Below, in pieces: positions 52,582 to 62,751 of a DNA stretch of 64,000 nucleotides; position 1 is the stretch's first letter; each line of letters begins with the position of its first letter. The stretch is from Halobacteriales archaeon YIM A00010 (lineage in GTDB: Archaea > Halobacteriota > Halobacteria > Halobacteriales > Haloarculaceae). The DNA lies in assembly GCA_025041175.1 (NCBI GenBank), contig JAKCFJ010000001.1, forward strand, positions 1,302,001 through 1,366,000, read 5' to 3'. The translations under genes were made by a program, and so were the position numbers. Under the pieces are notes generated by a model. It worked only from the letters and a program-made list of their open reading frames with translations, had not been told where the DNA came from and made no database searches.

Positions 52582-53355
52582 TCACCCACCGAGACACTGC
52601 TCGAACCAGTCGTCGAGCAACCCGATGAAAACGGCGGCGACGTTGGTTCCGTCGCTCCAGATGGCCGCCTCGTTGTCGGACCCGGAGGAGCCCCCACGCG
52701 TGCTGAGCAACACGGTCTCCCTGTCGGCAGCGAGGACGCGCCCTCGTTGCCCTTCGATCATCATATCTTCCGTGATGTGGTGCGTCTCGACGCCGGTGCC
52801 AGCGAACCGCTCACAGACCGCCCGGTCCTCGCTGATGACGGTCACCTCGACGTTTTCGGTAACGCCTGCGAGCGTCTCGACGATCGCGTCGCTCACCAAC
52901 GCGTTTTCTGCCGCGCCGAACAGGATGCGATCGTCGGCCCGCCCAGCGAGATCGACGATGCGGTCGTCGATCGTCGCCGTGCCGCTGACGGTCCAAACGT
53001 CCACCTGCGTCTCGTCGTCGACAGCGTGTTCGCCCCGGACCGCTTGGAGGTGGTCGAACGCGCGTCGTTCCTGTTCTTCCAGCCGCGCGCGAAGCCGTCT
53101 GCGCGCAGTTTCGAGCCCGATCGCTCGGTACTGGATCGGATTCGACTGCTGGACGCCGATGAGACCCAGCTCTTCGAGGCGTTCTGCAGCGCCGTACACC
53201 TGCGATCGGGGAACGTCCGTGATGCGGTCGACCTCGCTCGCGGTGCCGGTTTCGAGCTGCTGGAGGGCGATGAACACCGCCGCCTCGTACTTCGAGAGAC
53301 CGAGCTGTCCGAGCGCGTCGATGGCGGCGGCCTTGGGTGGGTGTGCGTCAGTCAT
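52582..53355 (-). CDS. TrmB-like transcriptional regulator
   Basis: This 257-aa regulator has an N-terminal winged helix (LGQLGLSKYEAAVFIALQQLETGTASEVDRITDVPRSQVYGAAERLEELGLIGVQQSNPIQYRAI), a coiled linker (RRRLRARLEEQERRAFDHLQ), and a C-terminal PLD-like sensor fold (ADDRILFGAAENALVSDAIVETLAGVTENVEVTVIS) as in TrmB-family proteins. Its start overlaps the MMPL gene's stop (8 bp), so both are on one mRNA. It may control the MMPL promoter, where an operator-like palindrome lies (57166-57187). Confidence 0.85.
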   Translation of the reverse strand: MTDAHPPKAAAIDALGQLGLSKYEAAVFIALQQLETGTASEVDRITDVPRSQVYGAAERLEELGLIGVQQSNPIQYRAIGLETARRRLRARLEEQERRAFDHLQAVRGEHAVDDETQVDVWTVSGTATIDDRIVDLAGRADDRILFGAAENALVSDAIVETLAGVTENVEVTVISEDRAVCERFAGTGVETHHITEDMMIEGQRGRVLAADRETVLLSTRGGSSGSDNEAAIWSDGTNVAAVFIGLLDDWFEQCLGG

Positions 53356-56300
53356 CGGTGAAGCTCTCATCGCTCGCCGTTTCAAACGGTGTTGGTGTGG
53401 TCTCGAAGGCGTCGTTGGGTCCGAACCACCGCGTCCACACGACGAGGAGGCTCGGGAGGACGACCACGCTGGCCAGGAACGCGTAGATGATGGTGAGACC
53501 AGTGATGATGCCGAACTGCCGGAGCGGCGGCAAAATTGCGAACGCGAGCACCCCGAAGCCGCCGACGGTCGTCGCGGCGCTTCCCAGCAGCGCGCCGCCG
53601 GTGCCGGTGACCGCCGTCTCCAGGGCCTGCCACGCCGTCGTATCGGGTCCGAGTTCGAGGCTGTAGCGCTCCGAGAGGTGAATGCTGTAGGCGATCCCCA
53701 ACCCGACGGTGAGGCTCGTGATCAGCCCCGTGATGACGTTGAAGGGGATGTAGAGCAGGTACATCGTGCCCAGGATCCACGTCACGCTGAACCCGACGGG
53801 AAGCATCGTCACGAATCCCAACGAGGCGCTGCCGTACAGATACCGGTAGACGAGCATCAAGAAGAGGAACGTCACGCCGAGCGTGATGAGCAGGCTCTCG
53901 ATCACCGTCTGGAGCAGCTGGTCTTGCACGTTCTTGAACACGATCGGCTGTCCCGTCGCGGTCGCTTCGAGGTGGCTCGTCTCCTCGACGTTCGCCGCGA
54001 CCGCACGCATCTGTTCGGTCACCGCGTCGCCGCCCGCGCCGCCGTCGATCGAGACGGTCATGTGCAGGGCCGCATACTCCTCCTCGTCCGTCCGTTGGAT
54101 CACCGACGACGCCGCGTCGGGATCGGTCTCGTACAGCGAGTCGTAGACGCGCTCGAGGTCCTGATCCGGGACGCCGTCCCCATCCGTGTCCGCAGCAGTG
54201 AACGTCTCGTTGAACGATTCGTTTTCTGCCGCGACGGACTCCATCACCGACAGCGGACTCGTGATGTCGCTGTCTCCGTTCGAGAGGGTCGCTGTCACCT
54301 CCTTGTCGCTGGCGTTCCGTTCGGCACGCTCGACCGCTGCTACCGTCTCCGGATCGGTGACGTTCCCGCGTATGAGCAGTTCGGCGCTCGAATCCTCCCG
54401 AACGAATCGGTCGTTGACGAACGACATCGACTCCTTGGCGGTGTACTCGCCGGGTGCGAACGGCTCGGGAAGCGAGTCCATCCACCCGTCGGGATCATCC
54501 GCGAGGAAGTCATCCTGAGCGAAGCTGGTGTCGACCTGCGAGCCACCGACCCCGCCCGCGACCGTCAGTAAGAGCGCGACGAGCAACACGACGTGTGGTG
54601 CCCGGCGAGCTGCCGTTGCGCCGCCGGACAGCAGCGTTCCGAGCGCCCCGCCGCCGGTTCCGACCGCGCGTTTGCGACGGCTCCAGCCGCGCGCTTCGAG
54701 CAGGCTGTCGAGTTCGACTTTCAGCGCCGGCACGAGCAGCCCAAACACCAACAGCGCGGCGGAGATCCCCACCGCGCTCACCACGCCGAACTCGCGGATC
54801 GGCGGCACCGAGCTGGTGAGGTTCGAGAGAAAGCCGATCACCGCCGTCAGCGTCACCAACACCAGCGCGACGGCGATGCCACCGATCGCCGAGCGCATCG
54901 AGCGCCGAACGCCCGTGACGTTCTCGCGGCGCTCGCGGTGGCGCATGAAGACGTGAATCGCGTAATCGATCGACAGCCCGATCAGCAACACCGGCACCGC
55001 GATGAAGATCTGGTTGAACGCGATCCCCGCCCAGCCCATGAAGCCGAACGTCCACACCAACACCACGCCGATTCCGAACAACCCGAGCAGGATGTCGAGG
55101 AGATCCCGGTAGGCGATCACGAGTACGATCAACACGAACACCAGCGCCAACGGCCCGACGATCGCCAGACTGTCCGTCATCGATCGCTCGATCTCGTCGG
55201 TGATGATCCCCGCACCGAACACCGACGCCTGTTGTTGCCCGTACTCCTCCTGAACGATCTCCTGGATGGCCAGCTGGGAGTCGACGATCCCGTCGCTCGC
55301 GGTCCCGCCGGCCGAGGGCCCGTTCGCGCCCTGAGTGAGCATGATCATCGTCGCGTTCGCTGTGGTGTCCCCTGGATCGTAGCTAGAGGGCATGAACGCG
55401 AACGCTCCCTCGCGCTCGTCCGTGGTGTTCCCACCGAGCACCGCCTCGACGGCCGTTTGGATCTCCGATTCGTTCCGAGATTCGAGCACGTCGATCCGTT
55501 CCGATAGCGACAGCTGTATCTCGCTGTTCTGTAGCTCTTCCCGGTCGGCGTCCAACTGCTCGACGTCCCGTTTGAGCGCCTCCCGATCGGTCTCGATCTT
55601 CTCGCTGTCGTTTTTCAGCGCTTGTCCGCTCTGATTCAGCTCCTGAGAGTCGTTCTCGAGCTGTTGTTTGCGCTGTTGTAGCTCCTCACTGCGCTGTTCG
55701 AGTTCCTGTCGATCAGATTTCAGCTGTTGGCCTTGTTTCTCCAACTGCTGGCCACGCTGTTCGAGCTCTTGCCGATCGGCTTTCAACTGCTGGCCTTGCT
55801 CTTCTAACTCCTGGCCACGCTGTTGTAGCTCCTCACGGCTCTGGTTGAGCTGTTGGGCCTGCTCTTGGAGCTGTGCAGCGTCGTTTTCGAGCGCTGCCCG
55901 ATCCGATTCGAGCGTTTGGGCGCGTTGTTGGAGCTGTTGTTTGCGCTGTTGTAGCTCGGTGCGGCTCTGGTTGAGCTGTTGGGCCTGCTCTTCGAATTGG
56001 GCGGCGTCGCGCTCTAGAGCCGCCCGGTCCGCTTCGAGTTCGTCGGCTCGTTGTTCGAGGGCGGCCGTGTCGTTTGCCAGCTCGCGCTTGTCGCGGTCGA
56101 GCTGTTGTTCGCGCTGTTGTAGCTCCTCGGGCGGAACGTCACCGGAGCGCCGGTCTTCGGCGAGCTGCTTCTCGCGCGCGGCGATGTCACGCGCGCGCTG
56201 TTCGAGCGAATCGCGCGTCTCGTTGATCGATCGCGCGCGTTGTTGGAGCTGTTGTTTGCGCTGTTGTAGCTCGGTGCGGCTCTGGTTGAGCTGTTGGGCC

Positions 56301-57127
56301 TGCTCTTCGAGTTGGGCGGCGTCGCGTTCGAGCTGCTGTCGATCGGATTGCAGCTGTTGAGCCCGTTTTTCTAACTCCTGGCCACGCTGTTGTAGCTCGG
56401 TGCGGCTCTGGTTGAGCTGTTGGGCCTGCTCTTCGAGTTGGGCGGCGTCGCGCTCCAGCTCGTTGCGGCTTTCGTTGAGCTTCTCCGCGCGCTGTTCCAG
56501 CGCTTGTGCGTCTGCTTCCAGCTCATTTCGGCTTTCGTTGAGCTTCTCCGCGCGTTCCTGGAGCGACTGCCCGCGTTCTTCGAGACGGTTTCCGTCCTGT
56601 TCGAGCGTCTTGCCGCGCTGTTGTAGCTCCTCACGAGTCTCGTTGATCGATTCACTCCGTTGCTGTAACTCCGTTCCTCGCTGTTCGAGCTCTTCACCAC
56701 GGCGTTCGAGCGCCTCGCCGCGCTGTTGTAGCTCCTCTGCGCGATCCATCTGGACCGCAGCGGTCGAGACGACGGTTGCGACGCCGACGCTAGAATCGTT
56801 CGTTAGCGTCTCGTTGACGGTGTCGTTCTTCTCGATCGCCCGTTGGAGCCGAAGCTGCCGAGCCAACGACTCCTTCGACAGGACGTTGTCCTCCTGAACG
56901 ATGATCTGTACCGACGTGCTGTTCTCGTCCCCGCTCGTGAAGTTCTCCGAAATGTACGACTCTGCTTGGGCCGCCTGGCCCGTCTCGCTCTGAAACGAAT
57001 CGAGCGAGGAACTCTGTGTGATCATCGGTGCGCCCGCGCCCATGACCACAGTCACAAGCAACAACGCGACGATGACTGGACGACTATACCGCGTTACTCC
57101 GGCCGTTATGCGCTCTAATACACCCAT
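53348..57127 (-). CDS. MMPL/RND transporter with giant coiled-coil loop
   Basis: This 1259-aa protein has TM1 near residues 18-34, an external region to about residue 630 containing 58 uninterrupted heptads (132-537), then the RND membrane core. First-half signature: GLSIDYAIHVFMRHRERRENVTGVRRSM. The second half has a large external domain with an EF-hand-like DTDGDGVPDQD, then GLGIAYSIHLSERY, where the usual Asp after GLGI is Ala. So only the first half keeps the conserved Asp. Haloarchaeal MMPL proteins of this group are usually 800-900 aa without the coil. Coupled to the TrmB-like regulator. Confidence 0.9.
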   Translation of the reverse strand: MGVLERITAGVTRYSRPVIVALLLVTVVMGAGAPMITQSSSLDSFQSETGQAAQAESYISENFTSGDENSTSVQIIVQEDNVLSKESLARQLRLQRAIEKNDTVNETLTNDSSVGVATVVSTAAVQMDRAEELQQRGEALERRGEELEQRGTELQQRSESINETREELQQRGKTLEQDGNRLEERGQSLQERAEKLNESRNELEADAQALEQRAEKLNESRNELERDAAQLEEQAQQLNQSRTELQQRGQELEKRAQQLQSDRQQLERDAAQLEEQAQQLNQSRTELQQRKQQLQQRARSINETRDSLEQRARDIAAREKQLAEDRRSGDVPPEELQQREQQLDRDKRELANDTAALEQRADELEADRAALERDAAQFEEQAQQLNQSRTELQQRKQQLQQRAQTLESDRAALENDAAQLQEQAQQLNQSREELQQRGQELEEQGQQLKADRQELEQRGQQLEKQGQQLKSDRQELEQRSEELQQRKQQLENDSQELNQSGQALKNDSEKIETDREALKRDVEQLDADREELQNSEIQLSLSERIDVLESRNESEIQTAVEAVLGGNTTDEREGAFAFMPSSYDPGDTTANATMIMLTQGANGPSAGGTASDGIVDSQLAIQEIVQEEYGQQQASVFGAGIITDEIERSMTDSLAIVGPLALVFVLIVLVIAYRDLLDILLGLFGIGVVLVWTFGFMGWAGIAFNQIFIAVPVLLIGLSIDYAIHVFMRHRERRENVTGVRRSMRSAIGGIAVALVLVTLTAVIGFLSNLTSSVPPIREFGVVSAVGISAALLVFGLLVPALKVELDSLLEARGWSRRKRAVGTGGGALGTLLSGGATAARRAPHVVLLVALLLTVAGGVGGSQVDTSFAQDDFLADDPDGWMDSLPEPFAPGEYTAKESMSFVNDRFVREDSSAELLIRGNVTDPETVAAVERAERNASDKEVTATLSNGDSDITSPLSVMESVAAENESFNETFTAADTDGDGVPDQDLERVYDSLYETDPDAASSVIQRTDEEEYAALHMTVSIDGGAGGDAVTEQMRAVAANVEETSHLEATATGQPIVFKNVQDQLLQTVIESLLITLGVTFLFLMLVYRYLYGSASLGFVTMLPVGFSVTWILGTMYLLYIPFNVITGLITSLTVGLGIAYSIHLSERYSLELGPDTTAWQALETAVTGTGGALLGSAATTVGGFGVLAFAILPPLRQFGIITGLTIIYAFLASVVVLPSLLVVWTRWFGPNDAFETTPTPFETASDESFTDD
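55517..56734 (-). repeat. 58 heptad (21-bp) coiled-coil repeats within the MMPL gene
   Basis: Residues 132-537 of the transporter read in 7-residue units such as ELQQRGQ, QLEEQAQ, QLNQSRT and ELEQRGQ, with Leu or Ile at position 2 of nearly every unit and never out of phase; even SGDVPPE is exactly one unit. At DNA level, blocks of about 40-60 bp recur (for example GTTGAGCTGTTGGGCCTGCT, four times), pointing to growth by duplication. Confidence 0.9.
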
Positions 57128-61260: not shown

Positions 61261-61302
61261 ACGGGCGAGGTGCTCGATCGGACACTCGGCGGATGTGAAC
61301 TA

Positions 61303-61348
61303 CCCCGCCCTCAACGAGCCGTCTACCGACGGCTCGTTGAGGGCGGGG
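61303..61348 (-). ncRNA. Right-end hairpin of the tnpB element, probable omegaRNA part
   Basis: A perfect 21-bp inverted repeat with a 4-nt loop covers the last tnpB codons, ending at the TAG stop. In TnpB systems the guide (omega) RNA covers the 3' end of tnpB and the right end, with the guide taken from flanking DNA. Here that would be ATCCGCCGAGTGTCCG after TAGTTCAC on the minus strand. Inferred, not demonstrated. Confidence 0.55.
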
Positions 61349-62119
61349 CTTCCTGTTTCGATGACGCGCTTTGCAGATACAGGTGTATCCACAGGGAGCG
61401 CAGTCTCCACAGGCATTGATTCGGAGTGTCCCACTCCTATCTGTTCAAGACCACGAGCAAGAATGTTCCACGCCGCGTTCGCATCCCTGTCCGCTGTGAA
61501 CCCGCATGACGGACAGGAGTGTTCACGGACCCACAACGGTTTATCTGTCGAAACGCCGCACGCCGCACACTCGTTGGTCGTCCCTGCTGGCTCAACGGCG
61601 ACGAAGTGCGTCCCTTCGCGTTCGCACTTGTATTCGAGCAGCCGCTTGAACGTTCCCCACGCCGCACCAGCACGATTGCGGGAATTACCATCGAGTTCGA
61701 TCAAGCCCGTTGCGTCTAGGTCCTCAACAGCTACGAGATCGTACTCTGTGGCGTAGTAGGTTGAGAGTTTATGCAGAAAGTCACGGCGTTTGCGTTTGAT
61801 GTCAGCGTGGCGGTGAGCCACGACGGTCCGTTGTTTCTCCCAGTTGGCAGAGCCGTATTCTTTGCGAGAGAGTGCCCGTTGCTCACGTTCAAGACGGGCA
61901 CGTTCGACCGACAGGTCGAGCGAGCCAATTGCTGTCCCATCGGTGTCGTGAGCGTACTTCAGAATCCCCACGTCAATGCCAACGCAGTTCGTGGGTTCTA
62001 CAGGTGGCTTCGGTGGTTCGTGATCCATTTCGATCCCGAAGATAGCGAACCACTCACCGGTTGGCTCTTTCTTGAGTGTGACCTCTTTGACCGTGGCATC
62101 GTCCTCAGGAATCGATCGG

Positions 62120-62169
62120 TGTCGCCAGAACCAGAGGTTCTGGCTGCTAACCAGAATCTTCGATTCTGG
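62120..62169. mobile_element. 50-bp double-hairpin insertion in tnpB
   Basis: Two hairpins with 8-bp arms and 3-nt loops, CCAGAACCAGAGGTTCTGG (62125-62143) and CCAGAATCTTCGATTCTGG (62151-62169), are separated by 7 bp. The 4-bp GGTG occurs at both edges (62118-62121, 62168-62171). It interrupts conserved tnpB sequence, and 50 bp breaks the frame. Confidence 0.65.
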
Positions 62170-62607
62170 TGATGGATCTGAATCGGAATGTCCGCAAGTT
62201 TCGAGAGCGACAACACAGTCTGACCACTCTTCTTGTCGAGTTCGAAGCCCGACTGGTTGTAGGTGAAACTACGGAATTCCCGTGGTGGCTTCCATTTGAG
62301 TTCGCCGACCTTGTAGCCCTGATCCTTGAGTTCGCCAAGCGCGTTGACGTTGTGTCTGATCCGCATCACGGTGGGTTGAAGCACCTTCGCGTACACATCG
62401 GTCAACTCGTCCCACCAGGTTTTGAGATCAGGCAGCTCATCACGGATCGTCCGAACGCGCTGTTTGACCGTACCAGCACGCTCCGGAATCTGGTTGAACC
62501 GATAGAGTGCGTGGTTATAGAGTTGTCGACAGATATCGCGGTGATAATCCAACGTCTCACGGTGAGCATCGGTCGGATGCAGGCGATATCTGTAGTTGTA
62601 GTTCATG

Positions 62608-62751
62608 TTATTCGTCGGGCGGATCGGTGACACGGACGACCTTGACTGTCGATCCGGCCCACGCTTTCGGGACATAGACGTGCGCACCGTTGCCCGAGCG
62701 TTTGGCGTGGGCTTCAATCACTTCGTGCCCCTCGACTTCGTACCGATCCAT
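62608..62751 (-). CDS. DUF2080 transposase-associated small protein
   Basis: This is a 47-aa protein: MDRYEVEGHEVIEAHAKRSGNGAHVYVPKAWAGSTVKVVRVTDPPDE. The SGNGAHVYVPKAW motif is that of DUF2080 proteins, which accompany haloarchaeal tnpB genes. It is related in look to AbrB/SpoVT-type DNA-binding folds (inferred). Its stop is 1 bp from the tnpB ATG, so it is the leader gene of the element. Too short for many gene callers. Confidence 0.82.
   Translation of the reverse strand: MDRYEVEGHEVIEAHAKRSGNGAHVYVPKAWAGSTVKVVRVTDPPDE

Follow-up and report, generated by a model that had tools for sequence, protein, structure and literature searches.

The exporter gene and its coiled-coil insertion

The window considered here is a stretch of 64,000 nucleotides from the haloarchaeon Halobacteriales archaeon YIM A00010 (contig JAKCFJ010000001.1). 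On its reverse strand (-), to which all window coordinates below refer, it carries at 53348..57127 an open reading frame of 1259 residues for an HAE3-like exporter of the resistance–nodulation–division (RND)/MMPL type, whose first periplasmic domain (PD1) is extended by 406 residues of coiled coil. This coil is an antiparallel hairpin with a turn at the unit SGDVPPE, on which five sequence, comparative and modelling tests agree. The complete picture, in which the hairpin forms a stalk of about 29–30 nm, changes its length by paired heptads and serves as a strut or reach arm, is favoured here with moderate confidence.

The MMPL model PF03176 matches two stretches of the protein (E=2.1e-40; 139.1 bits against a curated cut-off of 20.5), in agreement with the MMPL transporter proposed in the initial annotation. 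The best NCBIfam model, TIGR00921 (HAE3), scores 234.5 bits, below its own cut-off of 351.9; judged by these profiles, the exporter is of the RND/MMPL type, and the cut-off of TIGR00921 itself does not permit assignment to the HAE3 subfamily. At the sequence level the exporter also matches the hopanoid transporter HpnN (5khn, 6wu0; E=8.4e-13). When a compact relative of 994 residues (L046) was submitted to Foldseek, the top match was MmpL5 (8zkp, E=9.2e-22), with MmpL4, NPC1L1, NPC1, Patched and HpnN among further ones, while the model of the window protein, dominated by its long coil, matched solved structures only weakly over the whole chain. Weak matches of the exporter to SMC, Rad50 and ERM models were dismissed as a reflection of coiled-coil composition. 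A full-length copy is present in the genome from which the window comes and in six genomes of the same genus, where coil-less paralogues of 818–897 residues are found too. Since the relatives L008 and L007 agree with the named loci L035 and L039 in length and identity of the protein, this genus appears to be that of Halocatena marina and H. pleomorpha. As to conserved residues, positions 721–722 in the first half of the exporter are an invariant Asp-Tyr, the second-half counterpart of which is an invariant Ala-Tyr; in comparison with the paired Asp-Tyr motif known from MmpL3, one half of the pair is missing.

According to hydropathy, the first transmembrane segment (TM1) covers residues about 11–38 (57014..57097); TM2 begins at residue about 653. 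Between them, a helix leading into the stalk (residues 116–131, 56735..56782) is delimited by a helix start at 116 in the AlphaFold2 (AF2) model, and the remainder of PD1 up to TM2 (residues 538–652, 55172..55516) by alignment with the coil-less paralogues. The coil itself occupies residues 132–537 (55517–56734), so that its position, strand and phase, as well as its place in the external TM1–TM2 loop, had been correctly described on first inspection.

Residues 132–537 consist of 58 seven-residue units in one phase, with a hydrophobic residue at the fixed position in 57 of them (52 Leu, 4 Ile and 1 Phe), compared with 12 on average and at most 20 in 5,000 shuffles. The earlier description of 58 Leu/Ile units without a stutter therefore holds for the continuous phase, but it overlooked the Phe and, above all, the sole unit lacking an in-phase hydrophobic. 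This unit, SGDVPPE (residues 328–334, 56126..56146), sits at the midpoint of the array (334.5) and combines a Gly with two prolines, 332 and 333, which are the only Pro of the exporter from residue 34 to 580. The heptad phase runs unbroken through SGDVPPE, though from its composition the helix itself cannot be expected to continue there. On either side lie the ascending arm of 28 heptads (residues 132–327, 56147..56734) and the descending arm of 29 heptads (residues 335–537, 55517..56125), both defined by the heptads and the AF2 model and the former also by the charge register described below.

Within the heptads, a large hydrophobic residue occupies position d in 98% of cases and every other position in 0–2%, while position a is Ala, Gly or Ser in 55% and charged in 40%. 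The coil contains no Met, and the entire exporter has no Cys. On this composition, each helix bears a single hydrophobic seam, which is sufficient for a two-helix coil and not obviously so for a six-helix barrel.

Evidence for an antiparallel hairpin

In paralogues without the coil, the counterparts of residues 132 and 538 adjoin each other or are connected by short linkers, and the coil ends only about 115 residues before TM2. Hence both ends of the insert belong to one periplasmic domain, a requirement that a straight helix of 60 nm could not fulfil.

The arms were further compared in 62 haloarchaeal relatives in which a helical head domain replaces the simple tip. The lengths of the ascending arm (N) cluster at about 15, 19, 26, 33, 47, 54, 61, 68 and 75 residues, and those of the descending arm (C) at about 5, 8, 15, 22, 36, 43, 50, 57 and 64, following the rule that C equals N - 11, with deviations of at most two residues (r = 0.97). 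With nine long headless coils added, the heptad count is matched between the arms in 70 of 71 rows, while shuffles reach at most 25 of 71; in the headless proteins the turn itself served as the end point of each arm, and their equality therefore repeats the tip-prediction test given below. In the arm-length plot only L101 stood out (N 33, C 44); its head start had been misaligned by three heptads, and read by eye its arms are 54/44; for L109, whose insert starts three residues late, N was changed by eye from 58 to 61. At least 19 changes of arm length can be placed on a tree built only from the C-terminal part of the proteins. A further regularity requires no alignment of the coil: if the two main head types are taken separately, all differences in insert length are even numbers of heptads, odd ones being found in 0 of 46 cases. 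Of the possibilities named at the outset as fatal to a rod, the hairpin is the one that the matched arms and the even-heptad differences of the relatives bear out; none of the results shows the coil folded down onto the membrane or placed on its cytoplasmic side.

When applied to the nine long coils, which belong to six orthologues and to three copies on Haladaptatus plasmids (L038, L040 and L052), the arm rule predicts the tip at insert position 216.5 in L005, L008, L010 and L011, at 195.5 in L006 and L007, and at 209 in the plasmid copies. A helix breaker is found at the predicted tip in all nine proteins: the residues there are VPPEE, VPPDE, LTDAE, VPPSE, VPPAE or LNDTE, preceded by SGD, SGT, AGN, SGN or NGT. 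The version of the tip without the Pro pair (GNLTDAEIEQRR, GTLNDTEYQQQ) resembles the G-x-I-x-x-x-x-Y turns in the head domain of the relatives, and the simple tip is probably, to judge by this similarity, a remnant of that domain.

An axis was also sought in the charges: the chain was reflected about an axis, and charge products were scored at heptad position g (g–g′). In L005 the score is -18 over 30 pairs at axis 216.0, with no comparable score at other registers. Judged by the summed score, each of the other eight long-coil proteins likewise has its best axis where the rule predicts it; judged by the mean score, L007 does better at another axis (-0.57 over 14 pairs). The probability that such a best axis arises at any position is about 0.0005 for L005, L006, L008, L010 and L011, 0.004 in L007 and 0.009–0.03 in the Haladaptatus copies, values which are not independent, the sequences being related. 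The register signal is absent from charge pairing at heptad positions e, b and c and is confined to g–g′, so that the P values have to be weighed with four examined positions in mind.

Finally, an AF2 model of residues 1–830, computed from 23 sequences, contains helices at 116–191, 210–328, 333–460 and 465–534 with a turn at 329–332, where the predicted local distance difference test (pLDDT) is about 90 near the tip. In the AF2 model of the compact relative L046 (pLDDT 80.6), five shorter helices are bundled where the long stalk would be.

Size, surface and location of the stalk

With 196–203 residues in each arm, the stalk would reach about 29–30 nm at 0.1485 nm per residue, which halves the rod of about 60 nm suggested initially. 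The coil bears 12 N-x-S/T sequons, a count partly inflated by repeat duplication, where 1.2 are expected, and its Asn residues lie mostly within them; 12–13 sequons are found in each of the nine long-coil proteins, 11 in L046, and 0 or 1 in three of the Natronococcus relatives counted. The genome of the window organism encodes oligosaccharyltransferases of the STT3 type. Because of these sequons, whose enrichment supports and does not prove the assignment, the stalk is probably external to the membrane, where it may carry glycans. The RND topology, established for the family, likewise puts the TM1–TM2 loop outside.

In Haloferax volcanii, the surface layer (S-layer) has a height of 12.5 nm (PMC5744192) and pores of about 1.3 nm (PMC8640222). 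By analogy with this lattice, a stalk of about 30 nm would have to pass through a gap, lie tilted, or meet a different lattice.

Length evolution and repeats

The DNA of the coil shows a tandem periodicity of 63 and 126 bp and carries long exact repeats, as had been noted before. A 76-bp repeat has one copy in the ascending arm (residues 273–298, 56235..56310) and one in the descending arm (residues 378–403, 55920..55995), while both copies of a 68-bp repeat lie in the ascending arm (residues 226–248, 56385..56452, and residues 268–290, 56259..56326). Orthologues contain exact tandem copies as well, of 102 bp at a distance of 63 in L010 and of 83 bp in L006; on the evidence of these exact copies, tandem duplication in the coil genes is recent. 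The recent change in length that had been suspected is borne out by the Halocatena orthologues, which fall into two coil-length classes 42 residues (six heptads) apart.

Among relatives, the insert ranges from 27 to 776 residues. The comparison of arms has shown, at the level of sequence, that the stalk evolves by equal gain or loss of heptads in both arms. At the same time, a coil of 406 residues is kept in four divergent orthologues, and this constancy suggests selection on height. Two Natrinema/Haloterrigena lineages (L110; L045 with L055) have independently lost the stalk altogether and bear a linker of about 28 residues instead; because of such complete losses, the stalk can be regarded as an add-on that the core pump can do without. 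Another way of lengthening is found in Natronococcus-type relatives (L044, L071, L075, L077 and L078), where the insert, up to 776 residues, has grown by repetition of the head domain and not of the stalk.

Possible role of the stalk and alternative explanations

On the five tests, a helix of about 28 heptads rises from the porter domain, turns at SGDVPPE and returns in register. As we picture it, the pump core would carry out the transport. The stalk would keep a small tip at a set height relative to the S-layer, acting as a strut if the tip anchors the pump to the S-layer or as a reach arm if the tip stands beyond it. Such a role at the S-layer is probable. Three hairpins might trimerise, as is possible by analogy with the mycobacterial MmpL proteins. 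More broadly and only tentatively, haloarchaeal RND pumps may possess an adjustable "ruler", a hydrophilic and glycosylated hairpin whose height, from nothing to about 30 nm, is tuned by paired heptads and which sets how far the pump stands from the S-layer or puts the tip outside; it would represent an archaeal alternative to the adaptor or the tube in the efflux systems of diderms.

Several observations weigh against the hairpin stalk and its role, the inflation of the sequon count among them. The AF2 model has a low predicted template modelling score (0.37) and low-confidence breaks at 192–209 and 461–464, and AF2 is prone to folding long coils back. In L098, from a metagenome-assembled Halococcaceae genome, a long coil with 46 of 47 units in phase lacks both a turn and sequons and shows no charge pairing where the tip is predicted; it is either a truly different arrangement or an assembly artefact. 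Moreover, a two-helix coil is wider than the S-layer pores of about 1.3 nm in H. volcanii, so that crossing would require a gap or another lattice.

The stalk might instead be an arm for oligomerisation or partner docking, tilted within the pseudo-periplasm onto, for example, the glycoprotein of the S-layer or a partner anchored in the membrane; it would then not have to cross the S-layer. Its 30 nm indeed exceed the S-layer height of H. volcanii (PMC5744192), the coil of MmpL10 drives oligomerisation (PMC12183618), and H. volcanii RND genes often adjoin a gene for a fibre protein with an immunoglobulin (Ig) fold (PMC11349517). However, Pfam recognised no such partner among the neighbouring genes scanned, and exactly 406 residues in four divergent orthologues suggest that height itself counts; a docking arm is rather unlikely.

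A conduit similar to that of MmpL5, where the three hairpins of a trimer would form a six-helix tube carrying the substrate, appears improbable. It gains from the MmpL5 fold (8zkp) as the nearest solved one for the compact relative and from the coiled-coil insertions of MmpL5 and MmpL10, which have been modelled as trimeric tubes (PMC12501195, PMC12183618). Yet there is one large hydrophobic residue per heptad, the coil is free of Met, whereas the MmpL10 extension is half hydrophobic and the MmpL5 lumen is lined with Met, the insertion lies in PD1 rather than in the second periplasmic domain (PD2), and some relatives have no stalk at all. A substrate tube formed by the coil is disfavoured on these sequence features, and so is the earlier suggestion that the coils might link a conduit, given one hydrophobic seam per helix.

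Very improbable is a functionless expansion of a low-complexity repeat, a slippage-prone array that would be tolerated since it forms a hairpin: the exact copies of 63-bp tandem repeats and the broad range of insert lengths are in keeping with it, but the paired changes of the arms, the electrostatic register, the midpoint tip and a length shared by divergent orthologues all speak for selection. As for a single parallel rod of about 60 nm built by dimerised or trimerised protomers and reaching far outside the cell, the 58 successive in-phase units and simple length arithmetic that speak for it are outweighed by the Gly/Pro-Pro unit at the midpoint, the equal heptad changes in both arms, the antiparallel g–g′ register and the need for the chain to re-enter PD1 before TM2, and it is hardly tenable.

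If the hairpin stalk is real, archaeal pumps, which work in an envelope lacking an outer membrane, have evolved long hairpin stalks in another domain than the mycobacterial ones. The matched heptad changes would provide a natural series, from stalkless pumps up to arms of 28 heptads, for asking whether height tracks the S-layer, and they show that the pairing of arms can be read from lengths alone.

Comparison with known systems

In design, the nearest known counterpart is the coiled-coil hairpin found in the mycobacterial MmpL4, MmpL5 and MmpL10, which share with the window exporter the RND/MMPL fold and an antiparallel coiled-coil hairpin inserted in an extracytoplasmic domain. The coiled coil of MmpL5, located in PD2, has 196 residues, a length of about 13 nm, a disulfide at the tip and a Met-lined lumen (PMC12501195), whereas that of the window exporter is in PD1, is hydrophilic and twice as long, at 406 residues with a reach of about 29–30 nm, and has a single hydrophobic seam, neither Cys nor Met, and many sequons; it also lacks the hydrophobic content of the MmpL10 coil. 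The haloarchaeal RND permease HVO_A0467, a probable siderophore exporter, has MMPL domains and large extracytoplasmic domains in common with the window protein (PMC11349517). The two differ in genetic context, the window gene being followed by a TrmB gene, with no Ig-fold partner of the HVO_A0466 type recognised in the scanned neighbours. Periplasmic adaptor hairpins of AcrA and EmrA and the arms of SMC and Rad50 are likewise antiparallel coiled-coil arms of variable length (12.7 nm for the EmrA coil, PMC4158417, and 49 nm for the SMC arm, PMC5526789); these are separate protein families, whereas the arm of the window exporter is built into the pump itself. In the literature searched, no description of an archaeal stalk of this kind was found. 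HpnN transporters share the RND core and are not known to have a comparable stalk.

Gene neighbourhood

A gene for a TrmB-family regulator (52582..53385; PF01978, E=4.7e-16) overlaps the exporter gene at its 3′ end; of 84 related genes, 59 are likewise followed immediately by a TrmB homologue. In the Halocatena group, a pair of ATP-binding cassette exporter genes lies downstream. The Pfam scan of neighbouring genes recognised neither an MmpS-like gene nor an Ig-fold partner.

Elsewhere in the window, a TnpB-like transposase of the IS605 type is split across two frames at 61300–62717, with PF07282/PF01385 in 61300–62028 and HTH_OrfB in 61998–62717; by its broken frame, it is a decayed insertion element. 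Outside the window, one coil-less RND paralogue of the same genome (G000:C2:990363-992885) bears an in-frame TAA within the match and is either a pseudogene or the product of a sequencing error.

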